A program made the position numbers and the translations under genes. The notes beneath the pieces are model-generated. The model made no database searches. It was not told the DNA's origin and saw only the letters and a program-made list of their open reading frames with translations. Shown here in pieces: positions 3,183 to 62,900 of a stretch of DNA of 64,000 nt; the stretch's first letter is position 1, and each line of letters starts with the position of its first letter. This stretch comes from Acanthochromis polyacanthus (lineage: Eukaryota > Chordata > Actinopteri > Pomacentridae), in the NCBI RefSeq assembly GCF_021347895.1, contig NC_067126.1, positions 31,446,482 through 31,510,481 of the forward strand, written 5' to 3'.

Positions 3183-6100
3183 CCCGATGATGTTGAAGGG
3201 AAGATCCGGAAGATCCTTCCTGCCGGATTCACCCACAACACTGATGACTTCATCTCGCAGCTGGAGAAGGATGCCAATTTTAAGCCCTTCGGCACCCTGC
3301 TTCACACGTACACCGTTAACACCGAAGGGGGAAGAGAGTTCACATACCAGATTCACAAGGTACCAGAGAAACCCAGGAGTTCTTTTAGATTTTAGCCTCA
3401 CTTTAACAGTGGTTAATCTACTCCTTAAACTGTATTTGACATTTGTGTTGCTGCATTCGCTCCAGGCTGATATTACCTGCCCGGGATTCCAAGAGTACCA
3501 CGAGCGCCTGCAGACCTTCCTCATGTGGTACATAGAGACTGCCAGTTTCATCGACACAGACGACGATCATTGGGACTTCTTTCTTGTGTGAGTGCCCTCC
3601 TTAATTGACATCAAACCCCCCCAGCCCTACCCTACAGCCTTTATTGTGTCATTGAAAAACAAAGCCCCCCTTTGAGGCGCTTGTGACCAATTACCAGGCC
3701 AGTTTGATTATATTTCCCTCCGTAGGAGAATTGTTGATCAGGCAAGAGCTTCCTTTGTGCCCAAAGCCCTTTTCAGATTTTCCAGGGGCAAGAGCTGAAT
3801 TGAATGCTGTTGTCTTTTGAAACACTGAACAATGTCTTAACAGTAAAAAGAGCCTCCGCCAGTGTTTTCTTTACCCTGGCACCTATTAATAGTGACAATG
3901 GGGAAAATGGACTGAAGTGATTTTTGAGGAGCTCAGTCCCTCCTCCAACTCCTTCTCTTCCTCTAAGTTGCAGTACTCCAATTAAGTGCATAATGTATTC
4001 AGGTTGTAGCAGGTGTACCAATCGGGCCCTGGCTGCTCTAACATGCTGATGTTGGGGGGTGAGGGGTGGGCACGAGAACAGAGGGGCTAAAATGGACACT
4101 GCATGGGAGTGTGCCTGTAATTGACCTGTTTGCCTTTGTGTTTTATCTGCAGATTTGAAAAGTACAATAAAGATGGGGAGACTCTCTACGCAACTGTTGG
4201 CTACATGACAGTTTATAATTACTACGTGTACCCAGACAAAACCCGACCACGTGTAAGGTAATTGCTGGGGCAGCACGTGCCTTCCCATTCTTTTGTACGA
4301 AAAAGGAGTGGAAAATTATACATTTCTTTATCCTCTTCCCAAAGAGCCCAAATTACTGGCTTATATAGCCAACCATTCAACCAGATTTTGTTTCAGTACC
4401 AAACCAGGGTGATTTGTATCTGAAAACAACTTTATATTATTATAGATAAGCTTTTGATGTGATTTGATTTGTTGCATTGATGGATCAGGGTAACAATCTA
4501 TTATTTCCTGCTTTCAGTCAGCCAATTTCTGCTCCTACTCGGAAAAACAACTCATAATGCCACCTAAATGTGTCTTGTAACTAACCTGTATCCACCTTGG
4601 CTTTATGTTTTGCGTGTATGTTTGACCTTTAACTGAACAGCCAAATGCTGATCATGCCTCCGTTCCAAGGCGAGGGTGTAGGAGCTCAACTTCTGGAGAC
4701 CGTGCAAAGATTTTACTGTGGCAATCCCAAAGTGCAAGACATCACAGGTGAGCATCGCATTGTTGCTTCCTTCTCTTAAAATGGTATTTACTGTGTTGAA
4801 GAAGGTGGGATAAACATTTAATCTAAGATCCAGGCATCTCCCACGAACAGTTTAAATGATTTTTCTCTGCAGTTGGTGGATCCAGACGGTGAGTTAATTT
4901 GGAAGGCTGGCTTGTATACCAGAATGTGCTCTATTGAAACTAGCTGGATCGAAATAGACGCTTTGCATGCAGACGGAGGATGAATACTAAAGAGGCATCC
5001 CAGCTTTTTCCTTTCAGGGTGAAAACCTTTTCAAGAAAGAACTTTAAAATTAAGCAGAGAATATGCAGAAGGTTCCTCGTCTGAACTTGAGTAATGTTTC
5101 TTCTTTGTGTTCCATAGTGTAGGTAACTTATTTTAAAGTTTCAAGGTTTGAAAAATGTTTTTTGTCATTCATATGGATACAAAAGTGTAGTTAGTGAGTG
5201 TATTATGGTGTCTGTTTCCAGCTGAAGACCCCTCTGAGAACTACGTGAAGCTGAGAGACTATGTGCTGGCCAAGCTTTGTCAAGGTCTGCCGTCCTTCGC
5301 TCCAGACAGACTGCACCTTGGCTTCTCAGCTGACATGATCAGAGAGGCACAAGAGAAGATGAAAGTTAACAAGGTGCTGAACAGCATGAACATAATGTAA
5401 CAGACAAATATATAGAAGCTGTTTATAAATTCACGTGTTTTCACAATGTAATTTTGTCCAGTAGAAATTCATCATTTCAGACAACCTGAGGTGACTCCTG
5501 AACAGCAGCTCTAACCTCAAAATATTTATTCTCCTGTGATTATACCAGAAAAGCAAATAATCCCCGCATTTAAAGGGGAGCTATGGTTTTTTTCTTTCTG
5601 GGGTCTGTTTTCATATGTCATTTCATACATGTGAGTGATGGAGAAATGAATTTTCGACATAGCTCCAGTATTCAGCCAGACAGGCAGCTTAGCAGCTCAG
5701 CTAGCAAAAAGTATGGGGCAACTTGCCCCCCTGCGTCAAAGTCCGCCCTAATGTGCTTTTTTTCCCCTCACTGACCAGCTCAGATAGTCTCAATGAGTGT
5801 CCCACAACATACTAGAGATGAGAAGTGAACGAAAACCTCCACATTACTTGGCGATCGCTCTTTGTTGTGGTCTGTATCCAAATCTCGGGACGGTAGAAAG
5901 CAAATCTCGTTCCGAAATCGCGCGATAGCTCGCGCTATCACCGGTGTTTTGGCGCGAGCTATTGCACGATTTCGGAACGAGATTTGCTTTCTAGCGTCTC
6001 GAGATTTGGATACAGACCACAACAAATGGCGATCGCCAGGTAATGTGGAGGTTTTCGTTCACTTCTCATCTCTAGTATGTTGTGGGACACTCATTGAGAC

Positions 6101-9100
6101 TATCCGAGCCGGTCAGTGTGGGGAAAAAAGCATGTTAGGGCGAACTTTGACGCAGGGGGAGGCAAGTTGCCCCATACTTTTCGCTAGCTGAGCTGCTACG
6201 CTGCCTGCCTGGCTAAATACTGGAGCTATGTCGAAAATTCATTTCTCCATCACTCACATGTATGAAATGACATATGAAAACAGACCCCAGGTTGGGGGGA
6301 AAAAAAACCAAAGTTCCCTTTTAAGAAGCTGTAACTCTCAAATGTTTCACGTCATTTCCTGGTAAATGATTAACCTTCCATACAGTCACTTAGATTCAGG
6401 AAAACAAAGCAGACATCTCAGTGATACTGTAAAACTACTATATCATCCAAACTTAATTCCAGCTGCTTTTGAACATAATTTTTCCATTTTTGTACCACAG
6501 ACAGTAAGAGGCAACTAGAGTATATGTGGGCAACTTTAAAATAATAGTTTCTCAGTTAGTAATGAAGTAATGTGGACGATTAGTCAGCTACAAGATTAAA
6601 CTTGCCTCCCTCCCCAGTCAGCACCACAGTTGTTTAAAGTAATTATTTTATTATTGTACAGTGCCAGTTCACTGTTGCATAGAAGATGTTACAAAGCCAC
6701 CGTGACCCCTGAGCTGATGCACTAATAAAGGTTGTGTCCAAATTAACCAACATATAAGCAATTGACTGAAACTATACATAAAAAAATGTATATAACCACA
6801 ATCAGTGTGGACTTGTGGATGTTAACCTGCAGCAGGAAACACTGCTGGTTCACTTGAAGTTGTTCACATACAGACGCTGTGATCGATCCCACTCGATCTG
6901 AAAAGAACACGGAACTTGTGACACACATTTCAGAAGCTTTTAAGATTTGATTTGGTTTTTCAAGAATGCAAATAACGACTCAATTTGACTGCTTTCTAAA
7001 CATTTCCGTTTAATCATCAGGGAACTTACTTACATCCCACTTCTAAATACACATGAATACTTTTACTTGACAGTATCTCTTCTCCCCAGTGTCTTTTGCA
7101 AAAATTTTAATATCCCTGTGTTTAGCAGCTCCACTTTCTTGCCTGAAATACCTTCAATCTATGTTGGTTCATGCGGCTGCTTAAGTAAATGGTGAAAGTA
7201 GCAGCTTTTGTTGAGGGAAAAAAACTGCTAATAATTAGTTGCCTGATTAATCAAATGCCCTTTATTAAAGACTTTCAGTCGTCGTTGTGCTGGGCTGTGT
7301 TTGGCTCCTGTTGAGGCATAATGGTTTAAAAATAATGAAATTAAAAATTATTTTAATTAAAGTGTTCTCTATTTTCCACAGAAACACGCAAGGCGAGTGT
7401 ACGAAATCCTGCGTCTAAGAGCCACAGACATGAGTGATGAAGCACAAGCGAGAGCGTACCGCTTAGAAGTGAAGAGGAGGCTATATTTGCCCTACAGGGT
7501 GAGGTTTTAATTGTCACAGCTCCAGAGAAGAATACTTTACATGTCAGTGTGGAGTGGGTCAGGATGACGTTCTGAGTGATTCCCTCATGTATTCAAATAA
7601 ATCTGAATGTCAACTTGTCTCTGTTGCTGTCAAACAAGAATCCAGTGTGCAGTCTCCACCTTTTGTTAGCATAGCATTATAGCTGTTCTGTGTAGGAAGA
7701 AAAAAAGGCCCAAGTACAGCTTACAGTCCTGTGTTGTCACTGTTTATTATGTTACCTTTTAAAACAGCAGAAAAATTGATCTTCAGTCCTGTGAAAATTG
7801 ATAGATTACTAGTGCTGCATTGTTACAGCCACAATAGGGCGCACCAGGCGTCTGTGGTTTTGCTGCTGCTGGAGCTTTTTCCTATTCAGGCACATGTCAT
7901 TAGTCAGGATTTGCATTTCTTTGGGAGAAATAATTTTCATGAAAGTGTGTTTAAAGCACTTTGTCAAAAAGCTGCGACTATTCAGAATTCAGTGCTTCAC
8001 CAAAAGCAGTGCAGCTTTTTTTTTTTCTTTTTCGTTGTTTTGTCATGTTTTTCTGGACGAGTGTCTTTGAGTTTCAGACATTTGGTGTAACAGACGTGAG
8101 CGTGGTGAACAGAACATGTTCAGAGTGTCTGATTCTGTGTCTCAGACTTGACAGTGGGGAAATACCGAGCAGTTCTGTGCACCAGAATAACTACCTACAT
8201 CCTGTTTGCTTGTGACATTTTATGTTTGAGCTGCTCACTGAGACTTTGCATACCATCCATTAGAGAATTTGCTGTCAGCAATGAAACCACATGTCTCACG
8301 AAAAGGCAGAATCTGACATGGAAAAGACCTATGTGGTGAAGTGGGAAGGAGGAATTCCTTGGGAGAGTGGCAACGAAAGATCTGGTGGCCAGATGCAGAG
8401 CAATTTTTTTTTCCTTCCCTGAGGAAATTTAGCATGTAGTTAGTCGAATGGCAAAGGCCGCTCCTCTGTGAATGTGAGAGGGATTATACATTTCTGCTCT
8501 TACCCCCCAAGTCCCCAGTGACCATGTATACATGCATTTGCATGCAGGTTTTTCACACAGCAGAGTTCACTGGACTTGGTGAGTCTGTGCTTTTTCTGTC
8601 CACATCCAGAAACCTGCAGAAATCTCTGTGTTTTGAGCCATACTTTACAAAGAGCGTATACATCTCCTGGATCCTTCTGTTGCACAATATTATTTTTTAA
8701 ACTCTTTGATTCAACATACAGAAGGACTTCTTAACTGACATCTTGACTCTGCAAAGCTACAGAATGAGTGTTTGTTGTTCTGCCACCACCATCTTCAAAG
8801 AGAAATGCATTTACATTACTGTTAGAGCTGTGCTCTGCATAAGTATCACCATTACTCACATATTCAGGCTATTTACCAGTTAGACTGCATATCTCTGAGT
8901 TCTGCCTCCCTCTGTTTAAGAGGGCTTCAGGTACTGTTTGATCGATTATTAGAATCTATGATCCCTTTGTTTAATAGAGCAACCTACCAATTTTCTAGTG
9001 ATGACCTTGGCAGTTAAAATGTTAAGTGTTGATTAAAGGATTTGTGTGTCACGCAGTTTAGATGAACCACAGAGCTAGACTCGTTTTCCACGGCCTGAAT

Positions 9101-15909: not shown

Positions 15910-16754
15910 CACTGGAAAAAATGCCTCTGTCAAAACAAGAAAAAAAAAACTTAGTTCAAGGTAAAAGGGGCTTGAAATAAGTGGAAAAAATCTTCCAATA
16001 GAAGTGAAAAATGAAATATGATATTTAGAATATTGAGATCTTAAAATTAGCTGGGAAAGCTTAATTTAAGCTATATTTTATCAGGATTGTCAAGTTTAGG
16101 TGGCTTAACCCTCCTGTTGTCCTCATTTACAGCACCGAAAAATATTGTTCCCTTGTCTGGAAAAAAAAAAAAAAAAAATTCAGCAAAAAATTCCCCAAAT
16201 TTATAAAAAATTGCAAAATCTTCAGGAAGAAAATTCCATAAAAGTTTCTCTTAAAAGTTTTATTTAAAAAATACAAATTTGGGAAAATATCTAAAGTGAT
16301 TACATATATATCAGTAAAAGTTGTAATATTTCCTTTAAGAAATTTGCTGGATTTTGGTTGATTTCCCCCCCCCCCAAATGTTATTAAAGAAATCTTTTTT
16401 TTTTAGCATTTCTTTTTTCCACCAATAATTTTTCAAAAATTTCCCCTCAAAATTTGAAAATGTGGAAGTATATTTTTTCCCCATTTTTAAACTTTAAAGC
16501 AGGTCAATTTGACCTGCAGGACGACACAAGGGTTAAACTTATTTTGAGTTTTCTTGTAAAATACAACTCGAAGCAAGATGATTTCAAGATTGTTTGACTT
16601 AACAAGATATTTAAGAGGCATTGTCTTAAAACAGGTCCCTCCATCTTGCTGAAATGTCACTTGTTAAGTGAATTGATCTTACATTAAGTGGGATGAGAAA
16701 CTTTGACTAAAAATAAGACAAATAGACTTGGTAAGATTTTGAGTTTTTGCAGTG
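15910..16754 (+). mobile_element. Non-autonomous DNA transposon, copy 1, with a nested insertion
   Basis: The element begins CACTGGAAAAAATGCC and ends in TTGCAGTG, so the two ends are inverted repeats of the form CACTG(G/C)AAAAA. The body matches the copy at 18739-19695 in opposite orientation, including a segment with ACTTATTTTGAG and one with AAGTGACATTTC on the complementary strand. No transposase is encoded. A second element interrupts it at 16105-16536. I could not define a target-site duplication. The superfamily is uncertain (hAT-like termini). Confidence 0.7.
16109..16532. mobile_element. TTAA-flanked MITE nested in copy 1
   Basis: TTAA at 16105-16108 and 16533-16536 bracket a sequence starting CCCTCCTGTTGTCCTC and ending GGACGACACAAGGG, an imperfect terminal inverted repeat. 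The interior is A/T-rich and non-coding. TTAA duplication with CCC-type ends is typical of piggyBac-like MITEs, which are common in fish. Confidence 0.75.
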
Positions 16755-18738
16755 TTCACCACCACCACCACCATTGCTCTTCCTATCGTGTATCCATTTC
16801 TTTTGTGCTCCTCGGTTACCCACATACCCCCGGGCTAACTGAGCCCCCTCGTTGCCGTCAGTGAACCTGGCCGGTCCCTTTTCTTTGCTAAACGAGTCCT
16901 CTTTAAGATAATGTTTGATGCGTTGACAGCCAGAACCAAAACAGTGTAAAAGAAACCGAGTTTGACATCTTTTAATTGTACGTCAGAAAGCACAGATTGT
17001 GGTTTCTTGGGCTGCTTTCAGATCCCGCTGCTGATATGGTAATTTGCTCAAGTGAAGGATGTGATGAAAGTGGTGCTGTTGATAGTTTAGTAGCTAGAGG
17101 TCCCTGGAGTCCAGTCGGCTGGTTCCCCTCTCCATAAACATGACGTGATTCATAAAAGCAGCGCGGCTTTGAACAGCGTTTGTTTCAGTGAGTCACTTTT
17201 TGGTGTCAGCAAATAGAAAATGAGCAGAAAAGGTTTGAATTTTAAGACAATATGTTGTCTCACAGGGAGGGATCTCTCATCTCCTGCAACAAACACAAAT
17301 GCTCATTATGGTTTAAAATGAGAAAGTCCTGGGAGTGAACCTGCCGGTGTCTTTTTCAATATTCATGGTAATTGATTTCCATCTATGTACGACCAGAGCT
17401 GGTGGTTGTGATTACATCTGTCGGCTAAATGAATTGGGATCATGGTGTACTTCAAATTGAGCGTGCTTTAAGCCGGATTTCTATTCAGATGACATGAAAA
17501 TAGATCAGTTAGTGTATAAAGCACTGGATTTTGTTATGGTGATTGACAGCGAGTGAGCAGCCTCATGACAAGACTTGTTATTTTTGTCACAGGCGATGCA
17601 TGTTTGTGGAATAATCTTTCCCGTCTTTACAGCCAGATAAAGATGATGTCGCTTATTGAGAGGCTTCATTTATTTCACAGTTTTCATCCTCCTCGCTTTC
17701 TGTTGTGCTATTTTAATTGACTTCAACAAATGCAAATGACCCTACGCTTTGTAAGTCATCGTATTACGTATAATCGCGCTGACTGGAACCTGCTGTGGCA
17801 TTTGGTTTTCATTTACTCCATGTGCAGCGCTGAAATATGACATAACAGCATCTACCAGGAAGTTGGGCTGTTTGTTGAAAATCCAAATGACTTGTGGGTA
17901 ATTATTAGATGGAAGAACGGGAAACATTCATGTGTCAATGTTAAGCACAGCATGGAGGATTTAATTGTTGGTTATTTCTGTTTAAAAAAAAATAAAAAAT
18001 CAACATCAACAGAGGGTTTTATGTTTTGATCTGCACATGAATGGCCTCCTTGACTGAAGCTGCTGTTTCTTGAGACTGAATTTCCTTGCGGGGCCTGGCT
18101 GAGTATTAATCTCTTAAATGAGCCGTGCTGCGGAGTTGGATGAACATGTGCTTTTGCTAGATGTAGTTTTTCCTAATTTAAACTGTCCCATTAGACCGTA
18201 ATTGTTGCTATCTGAGGTTGGGACAGAGCCGTATGGGAGGGGAGCGAGAAGTCAGACCGAGATGGTATCAGGGTCGCGGAGACAGGAAGCCTCTGTGTAA
18301 TCATGTCAGGGTGGAGATCTGGGCCTGAGATCAAGCCAACTGGACTGCTCGCCTTGTTGCTGTGCTGCGGCTCCAACAGTCGGCATGTAGAGCTGCTGTG
18401 AACGCATCTTTGTTGTTCCTGCAGGGGCCTGGATTTCACCTGGGTGTTTAAGCGTTGGAGCAATTTCAAGTTTGTATATGAAAAGAGAGACAGCCTGCTG
18501 CTGTGGAATAGATTATGAGTACCAGCAGGGATCAGCGGTTAGTTTCTGTCAAAACTTAGAGGGAGGAGGGAACAGTGGCTTTGGTAGAATGAGGTAAACA
18601 TGTGAGGACAGGTTGGGAAGAAAAGTGCAGTTTTGCCCTCAGAATCATCGTAGGTGATTAAGATATCATTTACTGCTTCTACTGAATTAAACTAATAAAT
18701 AACAGTGTTTCAAAGGTCTCTAAGAAGGAGCTCTCGCA

Positions 18739-19695
18739 CACTGCAAAAACTCAAAATCTTACCGAGTCTGTTTGCCTTATTTTTAGTCAAAATGTCTCAT
18801 TCCACTTGATTTAAGATAAATATACTTAACAAGTGACATTTCAGCAACATGGAGGGACTGGACATGGAGAAAACTTCTGATCTCCACATTTTCAACATTT
18901 TTGGGAAATTTTTTGAACTTTTTTTGGTGGAAAAAAAGAAATGTTTCTTAAGAACCTTCACCAAAAAAATCAACCAAAATCCAGCAAATTTCACTGGATT
19001 TTGGATGATATTTTTTTGTGTGAATGTTCTTAAAGAAAATATTAGCAGTTTTACTGATATATGTGTGATCACTTTAGATATTTTTAGGGGTTTTTGGAAG
19101 ATTTTTACTAATTTTTTGAAAACATTTGCAATAATTTTCTTGCCAAGTTTGGGGGATTTTTTAAAACAAAACTTTTAAGAAATTATTGGAATTTATTATT
19201 GGATTTTCTTTTTTTTTTCTGCTGAATTTTTGGAATTTTTTCAGACAAGGAAACAGTATTTTTTGGTGCTCGTAAATGAAGACAACAGGAGGGTTAAGAC
19301 AAAGTATAATAAATGTCTCAAGTCACACAATCTTGAAATTTTCTTGTTTTGAGTTGTATTTTACAACAAAACTCAAAATAAGTTTAATACATCTCAAATT
19401 AGGCAGTTGCATGAAAGCAAAAATCTATTTTTGAGTGAAAAATGTGTATTTTCTTTAACATGTCTGGCTTCTTTTAAGACACCTAAGCTTGACAATCCTG
19501 GTAAAATATAGCTTAGAATAAGTTTTCACAGCTAGTTTTAAGATCTCAACTTTCTAAATGTACAGTATCTTATTTCAAGAAATCTTACCAAGCAATTTTT
19601 CGCTTGTTCTATTTCAGATCGTTTCACTTATTTCAAGGTAAAAGTTCCTTGAAAGTTTTTTTTTTCTTGTTTTGAGAGGGGCATTTTTTCCAGTG
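18739..19695 (-). mobile_element. Non-autonomous DNA transposon, copy 2, opposite orientation
   Basis: Begins CACTGCAAAAACTC and ends TTTTTTCCAGTG. Reading the minus strand reproduces the copy at 15910-16754 in the same order, including the poly-A rich CAAAACAAG segment near the far end. It is interrupted by an insertion of the same MITE family as copy 1, but at a different internal site. It encodes no protein; the 91- and 109-codon frames here are by-products of the AT-rich insert. Confidence 0.7.
18866..19293. mobile_element. TTAA-type MITE nested in copy 2, left end eroded
   Basis: The right end GACAACAGGAGGG is followed by TTAA at 19294-19297 and is the complement of the left end of the nested element in copy 1. 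The interior resembles that element read on the opposite strand. The left terminus cannot be found near 18866 and appears deleted, so the start given is approximate. Confidence 0.6.
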
Positions 19696-19699
19696 CAGT

Positions 19700-22600
19700 A
19701 GCGAGGTCTGCTCAGGAGAATTAAACAAATCCACATGAAGGTTTTTTTTTTTTTTTGCTGCACCAACACAGTAATGGATATGTTGGTGCATGTGCCCTCC
19801 AGCAGATTGAGGAATGCTCAGTAAACCTTAACTGTACACAACAGTCAGTGGATAATGAGAGGAGCGCTCTTACATTACACATACTGTATGTCACTCACAA
19901 TGCGATACCAAAACACTCCCAGGACCCGGGTCTGAAACGCTGCAAAGCTCTCGCTGTGTTTGTTCCAGCTGAACCCAAGCTTACTAAGTAAATAGGAATG
20001 CTGCGCACAGAAACACACTGACATTTGCCAGATGCTCGATGCTAATTAGGGCCAAGTATTCCCCCTCGGATGGAGTGTGTGAGAAACCGTGTAAGTGCAC
20101 TGCTGGCCGACCTGTAAGACCTGACTGTGTTTGTGCTCTGCATGCTTGAACATAAACTCAGGATTGTTATTCAGAGCAGGAGTTTGTTAGTTCAGTTTTT
20201 GTACGAGGAGAACAACACGAATTCCAGTTCTCTTTAAGGTATGTTTCAATTTGGGACTAAAATCTCTGTTAATTTGGAGTCTAAATAAACAGTTTTCACT
20301 GAGTGCTAAAAGCTCAGGATCTCCCACAAACTCCACTTATATGCATGAACAGATATTGCTCTGCTCCTTGACTCTGTCATTTACATTTTTGCAGATGGGT
20401 GCTGCCAGTGTGGGTGAGCTGCAGCCAAACACAGGTGCTGAGAGGCAAAATGCTTTGTTGCTCCCAGTTAGCAGCTTACCGTCGACACACGATACCTTTC
20501 AGTTATAGCATCCATCATTTATCATCTTGCCCCCACATTCAAGTCTACGCCTCCAACTGTGACCTGACTGTGGACCTGTTCCTCTGTCCCCAGAATGGCG
20601 GTGCATTAAGCAGGAAGTGAAAGGAGACCTGAGAGCTCCCGCCACCCACAGGCCCACCCTTTACCTCTCCTCACCCGGCTCTCCCAGCTCTGTGTCCTGG
20701 CTCCTGTCCAGGTTCTGGAGCTGTGATGGGGAAGGGTCACGGTTCGCGTCTGACCCCAGGCCTGCATCTTGGATGTTGTTATTATTAGAGCTCCGTGCCC
20801 CCCGGGCGGGCCGTCCCCGACGCAGGAGGAGGAACTGCTGGGCTCTGGAGAGGCTCTAGACCTGGAGAACAGCTGTGCGGGTTAGAGGCTGCTGGGGCCC
20901 CCCTGGGAGGGGGGTTCCTGCACCGACCCGCCAGGAGGTACAACTGTTTTCTATATTGACTCTCTGCACAGCTTCACACACTGACCAAAGCATGTTACTG
21001 GACACACTGTGGGGCCATGAAAGCTAACAGAAAGCTTGCAGTACATGCAATAAATTACAGTGCAAGCTTTGATCTGTAGGGTTGGGCGCTAGGACAATAT
21101 ACACTGATTTTTCATCCAGCAAAAATGGGCCATTTTATCTGTATTTCTTCAAGATCTTGGGTGTATAAGAGCATTTACAGAATTATTTTAAAGCATTCTT
21201 TGGCCTGTGATGCCTTCAAATAAAATAATGCAATCAATCATCCCAGTTAAAGCCATTTTAGGTTGTTTTTTAAAGTCTGACAAGCTGAAAGTGTTCCGTA
21301 TTTCGAAGAAAAATTCAAGAAAATAAATGCATGGCTGATTGTTTTCCATCTTTTCTCATTTCAGATGTGCATTGAGGGTCCTGACCGACGGTTCGGGAAA
21401 CACTGTATTAGACTGAGGTGAGCAATGTTGAAAATCCATTAGCAGGACTGCTTTATGAATTATTAATATTGGTTTTGTATATGCTTTTTGCATTAATCTC
21501 TTGAGACTCTTTGATCTGCTTAAATAGCTAAAAAAAAAACAACAACTTCCTAGCTATTTACCCTATCCCTTCATTGATTTTCCAGATAATTAATTATATC
21601 ATGATATGTCTGGACAGTTATTGTGTCCCAGAGGTGCATTATTATTTACTGGTGGACTGTCAGTACTTAGCAGGTGCTCTTCAGTGGATTTATAATCGCA
21701 TTTGAGTTCTGCTTTTGCTGCATAGCTCATATACTGCAGGCAGATTTTTTATTTGTGTAAGCCATCACTTGCTTTGTGAATGGATTACAGCCACGAGAGG
21801 CCAAAGGGTATTTAAAAGGCTACCTTCCCTCTCTCTGCCATCTTAATTCTGCCTATTCTTGGCAGGTCTGGAGGGGGGCCTTCTAACTGTGTAAATAGCT
21901 CTGGAAATTGCGTGTGGCCTTTGACTGTCTCTGTAATTGCGAGCCTCTTGCAGTATTTTGCTTGGCAGTCTGAGAGGTTAACCCCTGAGGGCTGGAGGCC
22001 TGGAGCTCTGCGTCTGACTGGCAGAGGGCTCCTCAAAGCCCCACTTGTTCACCTCCCAGCCTGGGCAGCTCTGAGCCACCGCTGATCCTCTTCTGGGCGA
22101 GAGGGAGAGTGGGCGGCCGCTGCTGCATTCAGCCGTGGCTGAAGCTCTGCAGGTTGAAGTCTGGAGTGTCGCAGGCCCACACAGACGAGCTCAGGCTGCC
22201 CGGCTGCACCTGGGCAGGCGGCAGCGCTAGCAGCTTTGTCACCTCTGCTAGAGAGCACCACTTAGCTCGGGTTTTAGACGTAATCAGATTATATGGATGC
22301 TGCCGTACTAAGTGCTTGATCGGTTTCCCCAAAAACCTTTTTCCCATATTCCCATGAAATTGCAAATGTGGACTGCAGCTCCAGTTAATTGTGTGCAGAT
22401 GGATGCACTCAGTTTGGTTATATTGAATGAGTGCTTGATGCACTTAAATTCCAATTTATCAATTTACACAATGTACCACTGTTCATTTACAAAAGGAATT
22501 GTCCGTACGAAGCCACAAAACAGTGTTGAGTGAATCAGATTAGGAAAACAAATGTTGAATATTCAGATATGGCCAAAAATAATATAGTGTTAAATAGATT

Positions 22601-25600: not shown

Positions 25601-26540
25601 AAGCTCTTGATACAAAACACACATACAATATCTCACTAGCTACTGTATATCAAAGCATTGTGCGCTTCCTTCACAATGCAGCCGTGAATAACACAGGTGA
25701 GTGATGTTGGAAAGATTGTTGGCTTGATGATTTCTTTCTCCAAGAGAGAAGGCTGAGGATGAAAAGTGAGTTGGAGTTTCTCCCCGAATTGCTATTTCTG
25801 CATTAGGGTATTTCAAGTTATTGTTATTTGATAAAAGCAAAGCCTGAATAATTCACACAAACATCGTCATAAGACGGAGCGGTGAAAACATCTATTTGAC
25901 TTTGTGAGGCTGTGAGGGAGAAAAACACAGTAATTGACCAGTCAAACAAGTGACTTTGGAGCAGGACAAAAGAGGTGGATCTCAAAGAAGACAGGAATCA
26001 CAATAAAGTGTCGCCTTCAGGTTTTCTGACAAAAATTTGAATTTGAAATGTAGCCGACTTGCAGAAAATGTTCACTTTATTGAAAGTGGCTTGTCAGAGC
26101 CATAATTAATGTATTTAAGTGACACATTTTGACTCTAAAAATACAGTTTTTGCTCATAATGGGAAATATTATGGTTCCCATTTGTATTTAATTCTGTATG
26201 ACAGTCAATAATTCAAACAAGGCCTGCATCCTCTGCCCTGGCATGTATCCATAAGCCACTTGGACACACGCCAGCAGCTCTGGGAGTAAAGCCTTATCTT
26301 ACTTGTGATTCTTAGCCAAAGCAGCATTATATGAGTGTTGATGGGGGGGAGTCCTCTGTCAGCCGGCGGGGCTCCGGTGTCTCAGCCGGGCCGTCCTGGG
26401 TCGCACAATTGGGCTGAGAGGGCAAGACGTGGCTCCACAACCCCAGCCGCCCCCTCCTCAGCTCGCCACGTTAAATGAGAGCATTGTGATTGCAGACCTG
26501 CTCTCATCTTCATGTACAGTCTCTTTTTTTTCTCCTTCTC
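19700..26540. other. Intergenic DNA, no intact gene seen
   Basis: GC content rises locally near 20600-20950 and 22000-22250, but no splice-bounded coding frame with a recognisable family was found. A CA repeat lies at 24931-24957 and a C/A-rich simple tract at 25099-25129. A 53-base stretch at 21365-21417 is bounded by splice-like signals (see findings). Confidence 0.5.
24931..24957. repeat. CA microsatellite
   Basis: Interrupted run of CA dinucleotides directly visible in the sequence. Confidence 0.9.
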
Positions 26541-26544
26541 GCAG

Positions 26545-28050
26545 CACATAATGACCCCAGACTAAGTGACGACAGGCGCTGTATCCGACCAGGACGACCA
26601 CGTAGAAATTAAAGCTGAGGATCTGATTCAGCGTCTCTTTCTGCTGTCCGGAGACGTTTCAGGTGCGTGGTTGTGTATTAATGTTTATCGACACACGTGT
26701 TACATTCTGATCCTCCATGTGACTCCTGGAAGCATCGAGGCAGGTGGTAACAATTGATTAAATCAAATTTCTGCCCAGAGGAAGAATTCAATTACGGCAT
26801 TAAGACCTGTAATCTGATGCACTCCTGCCTTCACATGTAAGCTGTGTAAATTGACAATATGACACACATCCATAGTATTAATCCCTATAATTTCACTCAC
26901 ATGTGATAGGAAAATAGTGCAAGGAGCGTATGGCTGAATGCATTTATCTAAACAGGTGCAAACACATGCATCAAACCCACCGTGGAAACAACAAAGAGAG
27001 ACATGATTAAATTGTTCTTCCCTCCACAGAAACGTCCCTTCCATCATCTTTACAGTGAACAATGTGGTCACACTACACCTGACAGGTATTTAAGCTCTTG
27101 TAGCCCTTTTAGCGTGGAATCCCCCCTCTCTTTCAATTAGAAGGTGCAATTCAGAAATCAAACCCAGCAGCACTGTTCACCGGCAGAAGAGTTATGAGAC
27201 GCTCCATTTTTGTCCACATTTAACTAAAGTGCACCAAGATCGTGCAACCTTTTGTGAACTACGAGAACAACCCTTCCACCGAGGTAGAGATTATGTTCAA
27301 AGAGTGGTTTGTTTTAGTCAAAGTCAGCTTTATTGTCAGTTCTTCAACATGTACATGACATACCAAGAATCGAAATTACGTTAGTCTCTCTTTGTGCAAC
27401 AGTAGGCATTAAATAAACACTTAGAAGGTTCTGAGATAAAAGAAATAGTATAAATTTAGAAATGTAATGTACAAAATAAGATACAAAAGGGCAAAAACTA
27501 CTTAAATTAAGAACTAGAGAGCAAAAAACAGGTAAACTAAGAACAAGGAAGCAAAACTAGAACCAAGCAACAACTGAGAACTAAGAAAAGCAGAACTGAG
27601 TGAAATGTAAACACGACCATGAGATACTCACAAAATGCCCTATTGGACTGTTGTCAATACTTGGTAGCTTAAAAACTGGTACCGTGATTCTATCTCGCCT
27701 TTATTAGCTGCTGAAAATACATTTCCTTTCCCATTTTGCAGCTACTGCATGAGCATGAATCCAACATATTGTAGCAGCTTCGGTGCTTAAACTGACCACA
27801 GAGATAGCATCTTAGAAGGCAATTAAAAAGAAACTAGCTCAAATTGTGTCTAACTTTGTGTTGCCGTGCTATTTTCCCTGTTTATTTTGAGCGAGGTTTC
27901 TCGGAAACTCCCGTTTCTTAATTGCACCAAATGCTTATTTTAGTGTTTTTGCCAGCCTGCTTTTTCACGGGCCTGCAAACAGCGGGAGATGCTATCAACA
28001 ACGATGCCAGCGTGGCTATTTCTGCCCCTACAAACGCACATATACAGCAA
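26545..28050 (+). pseudogene. metap1d: Decayed metap1d (mitochondrial methionine aminopeptidase 1D), three exon remnants
   Basis: In vertebrates METAP1D removes initiator methionine in mitochondria and lies between HAT1 and DLX1. Remnant 1 (26545-26662), with intact AG acceptor and CAG|GTGCGT donor, reads HIMTPD, then TAA (26563-26565), then VTTG and a segment ending VEIKAEDLIQRL. This matches HIKKPDYVTTG...IEVKNEDQIQGL of the family, with a stop in place of tyrosine and about 30 bases missing before FLLSG. Remnant 2 (27030-27085) keeps an acceptor, GTGAACAATGTGGTC (family VNNV) and CCTGACAG|GT (family PDS), with internal losses. Remnant 3 (about 27965-28050) reads LQTAGDAINNDASV against LQDGDIINIDVTV, and its acceptor is CAC instead of CAG. 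The exon order is collinear and on the expected strand. The remaining exons were not found. Comparisons are from memory of the family; remnant 1 is the strongest. Confidence 0.8.
27315..27560. repeat. Degenerate dispersed-repeat fragment
   Basis: The opening AAAGTCAGCTTTATTGTC followed by GAATCGAAATTACGTT is a pattern I recognise as a recurrent fish interspersed repeat (retroelement 3' part). It is followed by a purine-rich degenerate run with repeated GAACTA/GAGCAAAA words. It sits in the interval between metap1d remnants 2 and 3. The family name is uncertain. Confidence 0.4.
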
Positions 28051-37669: not shown

Positions 37670-39087
37670 ATGACAATGACTACGATTCCAGAAAGTCTTA
37701 ATAGCCCCGGCTCAGGAAAAACCGTTTTCATGGAGTTTGGACCCCCGAGTCAACAAATGTCGCCTTCCTCCATGTCTCACGGACATTATCCCATGCACTG
37801 TTTACATTCTGCAGGTCACACACAGCACGACAGCTACAGTCCAGCCTCGTCGTTTCCCAGATCTTTGGGTTATCCATACGTGAACTCGGTCGGCAGCCAT
37901 TCCACCAGTCCATATCTCAGCACAGTACAGACTTACCAAAACAGCTCGGGACTCGCACAGACGCGTTTAGAGGACGCAGGTAAGTGTGCCACAGCACGTT
38001 TGCATCTTAAATGTCAACTTTCTGTGTTGCTACGGCTCCGATGCGGTCTTCACTGCATGGAAAAAACAGACGACCCAGATGTGGAATTAGGCTTGGTAAT
38101 TATTTATTGCGTAACGCTATAAACAATGTATGCAATTAAGGGTAATTATACCTAAAGTACAGCCAGTAAAACTTGCGCTGGAGTATTCATTGCTGCGCAG
38201 CACTGTTGGCTACAACTGCCTCCTCATTTTTTCCCTCCTTCTCTTTGCTCTCCTCTGTCTCCATCAGCGCCAGAAACAGAGAAAAACACAGTGGTCGAAG
38301 GCGGAGAGGTTCGGTTCAACGGGAAAGGGAAAAAGATCAGGAAACCAAGGACTATATATTCCAGTTTACAGCTTCAAGCTCTGAACAGAAGATTTCAACA
38401 GACTCAATATTTGGCGTTACCGGAGAGAGCGGAGCTCGCTGCATCGCTGGGTCTCACCCAGACACAGGCAAGTCTATGGAGCTGCACATAGCTTCACTCT
38501 GCTGCTGCTGCTCCACGCATTTTTATACACTTTAAATGATATTTCCTTTCCCCATTTTTATTATTATTATTATTATTATTTCAAATGTATCAAATAATAC
38601 TACAATTATTTGGTCTTGGAGATCATGTCAAAGATAAATTTTATATGCTATTTATATTTCTGTATCTATAGAGTAAAATTACAACCATTATCCACATATA
38701 TGTGCTTGCTATGATAGATCATCTAATATTTTCGCAGTGCGTAAAACGTGCGTAATTGTTTTAAAATCGTGTTTGACGCTTTCCATTTTGTCTCTATTTT
38801 CTGATCTAAGTACAGTCTTTATCTTGATCCTTTAGGTAAAAATTTGGTTTCAGAATAAACGGTCCAAATTCAAGAAACTGATGAAGCAAGGCGGTGGCAC
38901 AATTGACACCAACGCCTTGGCCAGTGGCCGCGGACTTTCGAGCGGCTCCCCCTCGGTGACACCTGTCTGGAGCTCGCCGACCACCGTGAAGACTTCAGTG
39001 GGCACAACCGGATCTTACATTCCCAGCTACACCTCATGGTATCCAACCACGCACCAAGAGTCTATGCAACAGTCACAGCTCATGTGA
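37670..39087 (+). CDS. dlx1a: Distal-less homeobox 1a, three exons, 253 aa
   Basis: Homeodomain transcription factor acting in the nucleus, needed for forebrain GABAergic interneuron and pharyngeal arch development, usually co-expressed with dlx2. Exons: 37670-37979, 38268-38467, 38836-39087 (stop TGA). The protein starts [20 protein letters not shown], the DLX1 N-terminus, and ends [20 protein letters not shown] plus SQLM, the DLX1 C-terminus. The homeodomain covers about residues 127-186, from [15 protein letters not shown] to [15 protein letters not shown], with Q50 and N51 of helix 3 kept. Length is close to human DLX1 (255 aa). The start codon matches the conserved family start. The second intron begins GC, not GT (CAG|GCAAGT). 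Convergent with dlx2a. The 'a' suffix rests on linkage to hat1 and itga6; a 'b' copy is not excluded. Confidence 0.95.
38557..38581. repeat. TTA trinucleotide microsatellite in dlx1a intron 2
   Basis: Directly visible run of ATT/TTA units shortly after the second exon. Confidence 0.9.
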
Positions 39088-45598: not shown

Positions 45599-46940
45599 TC
45601 AGAATATCGTCCCAGCGCTTATGGCGGCGTTGTGGTGGTGCTGGACCAGAGGAGGCTGCAGATGCGTCGTAGAGTTCGTGGTCGAGTACCAGGAGTAGTT
45701 TGCCAAAAACGACGAAGGCGCAGTCGTGTTGGGAGGGCTGCTGCTCTGAGGTAAACTTGAGCTGACACTGTTCATTCTTTGAGTCTGTGGAAAGTCCCAG
45801 GCAGTAGTTGGCGGAGACGTGCATGGGGGAGATTCACTGGAAGCAGCGTGTTGTTCTGGGGGAATTTCTCCACTTTTCCACAACTTCTTGAACTTGGAGC
45901 GGCGGTTTTGGAACCAGATTTTGACCTGAAAAAAAAGAAGAGAAAGCATGAAATTGATTAACCGATATTTTCCGGCTCAAAACCTCATTCGTCAGTTTTA
46001 ATTTCTTTTCATGAGACATAAAGCGGATATTTGACAGCATATGAAACCATGCCTTAGATGTACCCACCTGTGTTTGCGTAAGGCCCAGAGAGGCTGCCAG
46101 CTCGGCCCGTTCTGGTAGGGCTAAATACTGCGTCTTTTGAAACCTCCGTTGAAGTGCAGCCAGTTGGAAGCTGGAATAAATGGTTCGAGGTTTCCTGACC
46201 TTCTTTGGTTTTCCATTAACCATCCGGATTTCTGGCTCGCTCTCTTCTTTCTCTGAGGGAACATTCAAATAGGACGGACGTTGTATGCATGAAAGGTTTT
46301 TTGCAATTTTCAGTCATGTAGAACTTTTACGCACATTTGCACTGCTCTCGTTTGATTGGCACATTTGTGTATAGCTATTAGCCTAATAAAGCAGATTAGA
46401 TTTTAATATTTTAGGCTTATGATGTGATATATGAGGTAGTTGTTTTGAAAGAAATTTAGCAGAAAATTGACGAATAGTACGTCGCCCTTTTGTGCAAACA
46501 AGAATGTCTAGTAATATTTCACCAGATAATCTAATAATCAATCATGTGCAGTAAATATTCAGACATGTCAAGCCTACAAATCTTCTAAATGGTTTCAAAA
46601 TCAGCTTCAGAGCATGCCTACCCGTTTCGGCTGGAGTAGGAGAGGAGTTGGAGCCGTAGGAGCTGTATGCACCATAAGCTGAGTTGAAACCGAGGTCGTA
46701 CGTCTTGGCGTTGTATGGCACAGAGCTCGTTGCGCTGCCGTGGTACTGGTAGGAGCCCAGTTGGCCAAACGGAGACCCGGCGCAGTGACCAGGCTGCTGG
46801 CTGTTGTAGTAGCTGCTGTCCGTCGCCGTGGACACCGGCAGGGTCGGGGACTCCTGCGATTTGTGCAAGCTGTGGTAATTGCTTGAGGTAATCTGGTTCG
46901 AATGCATATCAGTATTTAAGTTCTCAAAGACCCCGGTCAT
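45599..46940 (-). CDS. dlx2a: Distal-less homeobox 2a, three exons, 276 aa
   Basis: Homeodomain transcription factor partner of dlx1a in ventral forebrain and cranial neural crest. On the minus strand the exons are 46940-46622, 46252-46068 and 45925-45599 (stop TGA), all GT-AG. The protein begins [20 protein letters not shown], the family start, and includes [20 protein letters not shown]. The homeodomain spans about residues 125-184, from [19 protein letters not shown] to [15 protein letters not shown]. It ends ISAGTIF, diagnostic of DLX2. It is shorter than human DLX2 (328 aa) because the C-terminal glycine/histidine-rich runs are absent, as in other fish. The open frame extends upstream to 47030, but the conserved ATG at 46938-46940 is preferred. 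Tail-to-tail with dlx1a, 6.5 kb between stop codons. Confidence 0.95.
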
Positions 46941-59791: not shown

Positions 59792-59982
59792 ATGCTGCTG
59801 CAGGGAGGACTCTCTGCTCCTGTTCACGCCTCACTTTTATTTAGTTTTTTCTTCCTGAGGCCGGCTTTGGTGCTCGCCTTCAACCTGGACACCAGTCATG
59901 TCATCAGGAAACACGGAGAGCCGGGGAGTCTATTCGGGTTCTCTCTTGCCCTGCACCGACAAATCAACCCGGATAAAATGAT
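59792..59982 (+). CDS. itga6: Integrin alpha-6, first coding exon (3'-partial)
   Basis: Integrin alpha-6 pairs with beta-1 or beta-4 as a laminin receptor at the cell surface and in hemidesmosomes. The exon begins at ATG 59792 and encodes a hydrophobic signal peptide (residues about 13-29, likely cut before FNLD), then the start of the beta-propeller: FNLDTSHVIRKHGEPGSLFG followed by FSLALHRQINPDKM. This corresponds to FNLD...NVIRKYGDPGSLFGFSLAMH of the family. It ends with the donor GTAAGT at 59983. The frame is open further upstream to 59603, but the ATG directly before the hydrophobic segment fits best. The next exon was not found in the remaining 4 kb. The location beyond dlx2a matches the vertebrate order. 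ITGA3 and ITGA7 are related, but synteny favours itga6. Confidence 0.88.
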
Positions 59983-62900
59983 GTAAGTGAGCCTTTTATT
60001 TCTACTGATTAGGTTCACTTCTCTCTGTTTGGGTACTAAAGTTGTTGCATGTACTGATAATATATTGAGAAGCAGCAGACACAAGCAAATCAGCACCCTT
60101 TTCCCTTCTCATTTTAATTTTACTCTGCACAAATCCTCTTCATGAAAGTTACTGTAACTGTCTCCCAAGACATTAGTGTTTCTTAGCAGATGGTTTTTGT
60201 TCTAATATTCAATAGATTTCGAATTTCCCTCATGCAGTGATGCTTTGAATCTGAAATGAGAAGCAGCCAAAGGACAACAAGTGCAAAAACAATGGTTAGA
60301 AGTGTCATGCAAATGTGACTGTAAGGTGAAAAGGGAGCACTGAGAGAAGAGATGTAGTAATGGAGGAATATATCAGTCTCTGAGCTTTGCAAATGTGTGG
60401 ATCTGCAACTTTTTTCTGTTTAGAATAACATTTGTAGATATAGTGGACTGTTGATCAGACAAAACAGCAGTTATGTTACACTGCTAACTTATTAAAAACA
60501 GGACTAAATCATTTTGGGATATACGTTGTGAGGGTACAGTTCTAGCCCAAGATCGAGAGATGATTTTTTATTGATAACTTTTTCTCAAATAAGATTTTTC
60601 AGTGTCAGTTTCGCCTGTTAATATAGTCAGTTTCCTTTTACCACTGGTAAAAGTGTATGGTGTTTGCTGGGTTGTAAGTTCTCTGCCCTTAAAAAGCTTT
60701 AGCTAAAAGTAGCTTTTTTTAGTGGCTTTTAACCTACACAGAGGACAGAAAGAAATAAAGAACAGAGGACAGAAAGAAATAAAGAACAGGAGCAGGTGCA
60801 TTTCCATTCTACATTTGTACTGATGAAGTATGATTCATAAACGGTGCTGAGAAATGATGGCTTAAATGAGCATTCATGGCATCTTGCGCTCATCTCATTC
60901 TTCAGACAGATAGTCACAGAGATGTCTTAAGTTTGTGCCAAGATGAAAATAAACAGCAGTCAAATTTTAAAATATTTCTTCAATGCAGCAAAGAATGTCT
61001 GGCAGTGCTATCACATGTACACTACAGGAAATTGTCTGGTTTGGCCTGCCCTGAGGGGGCAGAGTAGACATCAGTGTAGTGAGTCTGATCGTCTTGTCAC
61101 ACAAAGTGCAACAGGGATAAGTTGAGGAGAGGGAGTGGCATATCAAAGCCTGGAACGAGGGTGAGGCTTTGTGCAAGAGGCACTGTGTTGGCAGACAGAG
61201 GACCCTGCAGGAGCATGTTGAGAAACAGAGAGGAGGGATCAGAAGCCCTGATAACAAGACTTAAAGAGATTTCCCAAAGATGGCATTGATCAGACTTAAC
61301 TTGTGGAATTTTATCTAACTGCTGTTTTGACTATTGCGCAAAAACAGGTCATGGTGTAGTGGACGTATTCCACAAACTGTTCTTGTGCAGACATTCCTTT
61401 GGGCCTGGATGCTAAAAAGCGGCACTTTCACATGTACCAGACTTCACAAGAGTGAAAAGTCATGAAACTGATGTCATATTTGTTGGGCAAATAGAGGCTT
61501 GAAATGTGACACAGGCTTGATACTTTGTTTTCAGCCAGTAAAAGTAAGAGGAAGGTGCAGATTTGCCTCCTTTACACGCTGCTCTATTAGAAAGCTGCCC
61601 TGCTTTTACACCAAAAGAACAAAATCACTGCATGTGACTTACGACCTTTTACAATATATAATAGTAACATGAGTGTTTTGGGTTTTGGAGTTTTCAAGGA
61701 GGATTTTTTTTTTGTCTGTCAACCTGAGAATTATAGCTACAGCTAATGAATGTTTTATTATTGAATAACAATAACTTGATTGACCATGATATATAAAAGA
61801 TCAAAATATGAGAGGTTGTGACCTATTTGTGTAACTCTCTCAACCCCAGCATGTTCTGCTGGGTTCGGAAGCCATGTTAAAAAAAACGCCAAAATGACAC
61901 CGTTTATCAGAGCCAAACTGTTTGCCAAACTTTTTTAGCTGTCTTTGAACTAATGTTCATTCATTTCGTCTGGGAAAATTTACCAGATTTAAGCTTAATT
62001 TCATGATATTTTACGAAATCTCTTTATTCTACATGTTTCATTTTTTAAAAAAAAAGCCGAAATCAGAGGGTTTACAGTAATTAAATTCTGAAAAATAAGT
62101 AAATAAATTCTGTGTGAAGCCACAGTGACTTAGCCTTGACAAACAGTCAGAAACATTGTCAGAAATTCAGGCACTTTTTGACTGAACTGCAGGCTGTGTT
62201 TACACAAAGCAGATTGGAACAAATATGGAAACAAATTTAAAATGCAAGTAGTGAAATAGCTATTTATTTTCAGTATGGAATGACTGTTGTACATGATGAC
62301 TAAAAGATTTTAACATTTTTGTGATATTAATTGTCAAAGAAATTCACTTATGCTTGTCCTTAGTAATTTCAAAAGACATTTCTTGAGTATTCTCTACTTT
62401 TGGCCATAGTTGTGTTGTTTCCATGCAGGTGCTGGACTTTATATTGCAGTCAAAAATGAACCCACAGGTAGTAAAAGTGTGAGAGGAACAAAAACACACC
62501 CAGCTTTGGGTTCAAACAGTCAAAATGTAACAGATACGATCTATTATTTAGAAAGTAGCAGCCAATTTTTGGTTTCTATTTGTTTTTTTTGTTTCATCTC
62601 TACTAACAATCAGTTGATTAATCAATTAAACATATAGGCACTAAAGTCAGGCGGCTGTCCTGCTTGTAATTATCCCACATTGACTAGCCTTTATTTCTTG
62701 GCTGAGTCACTGTAACGCACAACAATTCTTGTTGTAATAGAGGAAAGTATGGAGCAAGCAACAGCTCGCTCTCCTCTGCCATGATCTTCGCTCTAAATCC
62801 TCATGTGACCCTGAGATAATCAGCCAAACGATTCAAGTGGAAGCTCAGCACGGCACACAGACATAGGTAATGAACAGCCTTGTCTGACTTGAAGAAGTGA

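Follow-up and report, generated by a model that had tools for sequence, protein, structure and literature searches.

A fossil exon 3 of the metap1d ohnologue beside dlx1a in Acanthochromis polyacanthus and its possible non-coding retention

Former exons at duplicate fish loci that no longer hold the gene drove reporters in four cases, and three of the four needed the exon itself, as Eichenlaub and Ettwiller reported in 2011 for the recycled regions at ttc29, dock9, ccdc46, and fam44b (PMC3206014). A related account concerns the bystander genes of genomic regulatory blocks, in which targets and elements stay on one copy after duplication and the bystander on the other (Synorth, PMC2745767). In the Dlx literature, one report places the mouse enhancer URE2 inside Metapl1 intron 6, and for zebrafish it describes a unique metapl1 that is syntenic with dlx2b (chromosome 1), dlx1a/dlx2a on chromosome 9, and URE2 left upstream of dlx1a on chromosome 9 (PMC2891724, 2010). 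Since that report had already set out the zebrafish gene split in 2010, loss of metap1d at the dlx1a side is not new. A search of the open PubMed Central literature found no paper naming a metap1d relic beside dlx1a. Here we describe such a relic in the damselfish Acanthochromis polyacanthus and consider why it may have survived.

A METAP1D-like exon between hat1 and dlx1a

The window, by which we mean the whole 64,000-nucleotide stretch that was analyzed, is C14:31446482-31510481. One of several hat1 exons lies at 3183..3392 on the plus strand (PF10394; HAT1 in the PDB, E 2.7e-21). The coding part of the first exon of a gene that we take from its peptide and locus to be dlx1a lies at 37670..37981 (plus strand, with the homeodomain in the following exons), and that of dlx2a lies at 46620..46940 (minus strand; PF12413 DLL_N). 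All three positions came from comparison of contigs C14 and C9. The interval between hat1 and dlx1a spans 27 kb and holds one exon-like piece, at 26545-26662; dlx1a lies about 11 kb downstream of it and dlx2a beyond, such that a developmental gene flanks the piece. A preliminary description had placed a relic between these two genes, and the hat1 matches to PF10394 and the PDB, together with the homeodomain and DLL_N domain of dlx1a/dlx2a, bear that out.

Farther along, 59876..59987 (plus strand) has a 73% DNA match to C9 and is probably the first coding exon of a gene that, by its peptide, is presumably itga6, a further exon of which was matched downstream at C14:31519908. As the piece follows dlx2a and precedes the later itga6 exons, itga6 would begin inside the window. 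A reading of 59876-59987 as a non-coding element was rejected because it reads as the itga6 first exon. Elsewhere in the window, repeat-like stretches at 15910-19695 have 71 to 90% matches at several places on C14 and at two on C9 (28530.6-28531.2 kb and 28539.0-28539.5 kb), and two opposite-strand frames with a near-identical peptide at 5780-6191 suggest an inverted repeat.

PDB, tblastn, and profile searches identify the piece at 26545..26662 (plus strand, 118 nt) as a fossil of exon 3 from the metap1d ohnologue on the dlx1a side. Frame 1 translates as HIMTPD*VTTGAVSDQDDHVEIKAEDLIQRLFLLSGDVS, with one stop, and when X was placed at the stop the peptide matched one distinct sequence among all PDB chains at E ≤10, namely, residues 45-75 of human METAP1D (8khm; E 0.00049). 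All 29 METAP1D proteins compared with the window by tblastn matched at the piece, with E values from 5e-7 (conger) to 0.18. Moreover, profiles made from 50-residue METAP1D pieces from gar residue 46 onward and from the whole protein were run on the window and on the reversed window, and the profile covering the exon gave an E of 1.1e-7, whereas the best value in the reversed control was 0.11. Homology to METAP1D thus exceeds chance by all three approaches, in agreement with the preliminary description of a METAP1D-like exon at this place. The same profiles found no further metap1d exon in the window beyond the reversed-window control. The best other profile match, at 22077-22154 on the minus strand (E 0.049), was rejected for its wrong strand and its closeness to the control value. 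Numbered by the intact gene on C9, in which exon 3 has 150 nt and both of its ends fall on codon borders, the piece corresponds to exon 3. We conclude from the sequence that 26545-26662 is what remains of a METAP1D exon 3.

The coding capacity of the relic is destroyed, as the frame is broken twice. An in-frame TAA at 26563..26565 (plus strand) occupies codon 7, where METAP1D has tyrosine, as seen in the sequence, the translation, and the codon alignment and as had been claimed. Second, codon alignment to the intact exon of the same genome indicates that the 118 nt of the relic represent a net loss of 32 nt from 150. Ten codons after codon 31, near the 3′ end, are missing at a junction at 26637..26638 (plus strand; the place of the 30-nt gap is an alignment choice), and 2 nt more are missing before the donor. 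The loss of about 30 bases, or ten codons, given in the preliminary description was therefore right about the codons but incomplete in extent. Because 118 nt is 3n + 1, the length alone would suffice to break the frame.

Both splice signals, by contrast with the frame, are kept as first described, with AG at 26543-26544 and GT at 26663-26664. The acceptor comprises a pyrimidine tract and AG at 26517..26544 (plus strand), in which pyrimidines make up 24 of the 28 bases preceding the AG, and the donor is GTGCGT at 26663..26668 (plus strand). One way in which such signals could persist is if the exon is still spliced, either into a non-coding transcript or as an upstream untranslated exon near dlx1a. 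The tract and the donor would fit that reading, but the stop and the 3n + 1 length exclude the old coding use and nothing else supports a transcript; thus, we consider continued splicing improbable.

The duplicated segment and the metap1d gene on C9

The genome searched comprises 957 Mb in 81 contigs. A METAP1D search returned 11 matches, 7 of which fall on C9 (28552791-28556839) with 74 to 92% identity to the tuna protein; the remaining 4 fall on C1 and are presumably cytosolic METAP1. The C9 gene has ten exons at C9:28552791-28558801 on the minus strand, and the best match to its protein among those listed was the tuna cluster, at 89%. A METAP1D gene is therefore present elsewhere in the genome, and the suggestion in the preliminary description that metap1d was lost from the lineage is not supported. 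One caveat is a frameshift of a single base within five consecutive C at about 28556833 (minus strand), within the transit-peptide exon (exon 2): exons 1 and 2 together make 200 nt, one base short of frame, and every later exon is open. The frameshift may be a homopolymer sequencing error; if it is real, the sole metap1d copy is damaged too. A unitary pseudogene has no functional copy elsewhere, and the relic falls outside that class given the metap1d gene on C9, which carries the single-base exon 2 frameshift in the assembly. Recent loss of a percomorph gene was rejected as the main reading, as metap1d is present on C9 and the relic lacks derived residues.

The order of genes on C14 is dync1i2 (31405350), an slc25 carrier (31412819), hat1 (31449664), the relic (31473026-31473143), dlx1a (31484151), dlx2a (31493421), and itga6 (31519908). 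On C9 the order, reversed, is dync1i2 (28576071), slc25 (28571225), metap1d (28558-28553 kb), and itga6 (28529627). ITGA6 and DYNC1I2 were named by PDB matches (E 1e-27); for the slc25 piece the matches point no further than to carriers in general, and we take it to be SLC25A12. In the 80 kb of C9:28516001-28596000 around metap1d, no hat1, dlx1, or dlx2 was found at E 1e-4 or at 0.01. The lack of a Dlx match near C9 metap1d, unlike the case of zebrafish dlx2b, indicates that dlx2b is gone from those 80 kb. The C14 and C9 blocks are collinear with complementary losses, and the window is therefore the other copy of the duplicated segment that holds the intact gene. Within it the relic occupies the ancestral place and orientation, which accords with the earlier statement that it lies where metap1d lies in other vertebrates and with the alternative offered there, loss at the post-duplication copy of the locus. 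On the strength of synteny, and not of the exon tree, we conclude with near certainty that the relic is the metap1d ohnologue at the dlx1a side.

Ancestral residues and preservation

A set of 166 METAP1D proteins was assembled, with names from the best 120 of 7,972 and the best 120 of 227 matches, and the relic was compared with 71 of these over 30 residues. It shared 20 residues with sturgeon, 19 with gar, and 12 with the C9 copy of its own genome. Identities were 17 to 20 of 30 (mean, 18.6) with 19 lobe-finned, tetrapod, and cartilaginous sequences and 15 to 20 (mean, 17.5) with 6 elopomorphs and osteoglossomorphs. They were 11 to 14 with 8 otocephalans, 8 to 16 with 8 other euteleosts, and 8 to 14 (mean, 12.5) with 28 percomorphs, two of which are without part of the stretch. 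At 11 sites where the non-teleost and clupeocephalan consensuses differ, the relic has 6 ancestral, 0 derived, and 5 other residues. At the residue level, therefore, the relic is closer to METAP1D of non-teleosts than to that of percomorphs.

The possibility that the relic is a recent partial copy of C9 metap1d inserted at the window is contradicted by these counts. Homology alone would be explained, but 12 of 30 residues shared with the C9 exon against 19 of 30 with gar, an identity of 14/39 with the C9 exon at third codon positions, and the ancestral place and orientation of the relic make a recent copy scarcely credible.

An exon tree placed the relic outside Clupeocephala with support of 97/92, and an AU test on the 39 residues did not reject a grouping of the relic with percomorphs (p 0.37) or one with all Clupeocephala (p 0.58, with slightly higher likelihood). 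The 166 proteins listed divide into 94 of ancestral type, 53 of derived type, and 19 unclassed. By the names listed, the ray-finned fishes of ancestral type are gar, sturgeon, Albula, Conger, Gymnothorax, Megalops, Arapaima, and Brienomyrus; among the matches listed, the best 120 of each set, no named clupeocephalan was one of the 94 ancestral-type proteins. That absence among the matches listed suggests that the coding loss is probably old. A protein search with the open frame, directed at the relic as a predicted small protein in other fishes, gave no candidate sharing three words.

An old loss is difficult to reconcile with the state of the relic. At the protein level it matches the non-teleost consensus at 19 of 30 residues, and the working C9 copy does so at 18 of 30. 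In simulations of neutral decay without indels, the probability of at least 19 of 31 residues matching gar was 0.69, 0.19, 0.027, and 0.0026 at divergences (d) of 0.2, 0.3, 0.4, and 0.5, and 0 of 5,000 runs reached it at either 0.75 or 1.0; with indels allowed, the values were 0.14, 0.012, and 0 of 3,000 at 0.2, 0.3, and 0.5. Neutral decay of at least 0.5 substitutions per site thus rarely leaves the 19/30 of the relic. A loss early in clupeocephalans would be more than 200 million years old, and the neutral rate in fishes is a few 1e-9 per site per year; together these give a d near or above 0.6. The relic appears better preserved than its likely age would lead one to expect, which implies either that the loss was late or that the DNA was constrained.

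If the loss was late, the dlx1a-side metap1d would have been functional until fairly recently, the other exons would have been deleted, and exon 3 would be the last piece of a neutral relic. The relic-gar divergence fits a d of about 0.2 to 0.25 in the simulations, the splice dinucleotides and pyrimidine tract survive, the AU test does not exclude a percomorph placement, and at a d of about 0.2 to 0.3 neutral decay would be enough if the other exons were deleted. A coding pattern relative to the C9 copy, with identities of 21/39, 27/39, and 14/39 at codon positions 1, 2, and 3, is also consistent with late loss, although the old divergence of C9 could alone produce it. Zebrafish, however, is already without metap1d at dlx1a according to PMC2891724, and no named clupeocephalan of ancestral type was among the 166 proteins listed, such that late loss would need several parallel losses. 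Moreover, simulated detection of the five other exons was 0.93, 0.93, 0.76, 0.69, and 0.63 at d 0.2 and 0.69, 0.57, 0.41, 0.29, and 0.29 at d 0.3. The probability of missing all five, taken as the product of these values and assuming no large deletions, would be about 1.6e-4 and about 0.04, respectively. The exons should have been visible at d 0.2, yet none was; equally detectable in simulation, they left no trace in the window. Late neutral loss is possible, but we think it unlikely.

Regulatory retention and comparison with known systems

We lean towards the reading that the relic was retained for a non-coding reason, most likely cis-regulation of dlx1a/dlx2a; from the analyses above we infer retention, constraint, and early loss. 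Teleost genome duplication left the HAT1-METAP1D-DLX1-DLX2-ITGA6 segment in two copies. As synteny shows, metap1d stayed on the C9 copy, from which hat1 and both dlx genes disappeared, whereas on the C14 copy in the window hat1, dlx1a, and dlx2a stayed and metap1d ceased to be a protein gene. Exon 3 alone escaped erasure there; it gained a stop and lost 32 nt, yet it is as close to the ancestral sequence as the working exon is. Most likely, selection would have acted on this DNA because it served dlx1a/dlx2a as a cis-regulatory element. This reading is favored because the relic is as near the non-teleost consensus as the working copy is, which strong neutral decay rarely leaves, and it is in line with the Dlx1/2 enhancer that mouse Metap1d introns house in this stretch (PMC2891724). 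We infer that such an element would be conserved across fishes. Against an enhancer role, an enhancer would have no use for a splice acceptor and its long pyrimidine tract. Two elephant-shark primer patterns for URE2, allowing up to three mismatches, gave zero matches each.

A more speculative extension, which we offer tentatively and consider rather improbable, is that METAP1D exon 3 was dual use in ancestral bony fishes, encoding enzyme and controlling Dlx1/Dlx2, and that the functions split after duplication, with the dlx1a side keeping the control and the C9 side keeping the code, freed at exon 3. In clupeocephalan METAP1D, positions conserved in non-teleosts have changed at 11 of 40 in exon 3 versus 7 of 147 in the other exons (Fisher p 1.3e-4, with columns taken as independent). 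By pairwise identities, the exon 3 divergence ratio is 2.5 to 2.7, and the other exons lie at 0.83 to 1.38 apart from one of 16 residues (1.95 and 4.8). Tree length in Clupeocephala relative to non-teleosts is highest in exon 3 of the eight exons (3.8), with six others at 0.8 to 1.7 and the 16-residue exon at 2.9. The tree lengths were obtained after ten of the 71 rows were dropped, the last six of which had missing or odd exons, and before those six were dropped exons 5 and 9 were as high as exon 3. Relaxation of exon 3 fits the split of a dual-use exon, but a protein-level shift would give the same, and by chance alone the fossil exon would coincide with the relaxed exon about 1 time in 8.

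Among described systems, PMC3206014 presents recycled regions as likewise ex-coding exons at gene-less duplicate teleost loci, with a broken frame, adjacent developmental genes, and a recognizable sequence. The relic lies at the locus of a lost duplicate, carries a stop in the old frame, and adjoins a developmental gene. Recycled regions, as described there, show conservation across teleosts and reporter activity in medaka, whereas the relic is known here from the sequence of one genome; they also show amino acid similarity below that of the coding paralogue, whereas the relic equals it (19/30 versus 18/30). Terms for Dlx and METAP are absent from the main text of PMC3206014. Should the element prove conserved beside dlx1a in other fishes, it would join the four published cases as a fifth candidate for an exon turned element, near well-studied forebrain genes, and would allow a test of whether elements arise after coding loss or were already regulatory in the ancestral exon.

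The arrangement also resembles that of bystander genes after duplication, but the Synorth accounts concern elements and whole genes, whereas the relic is one exon, and dlx and metap are absent from that text (PMC2745767). URE2, the Dlx1/Dlx2 forebrain enhancer, is intronic and distinct from the relic exon (PMC2891724). The two nonetheless share the locus, a Dlx control element, putative in the case of the relic, inside or beside metap1d, and the same split of genes as in zebrafish.
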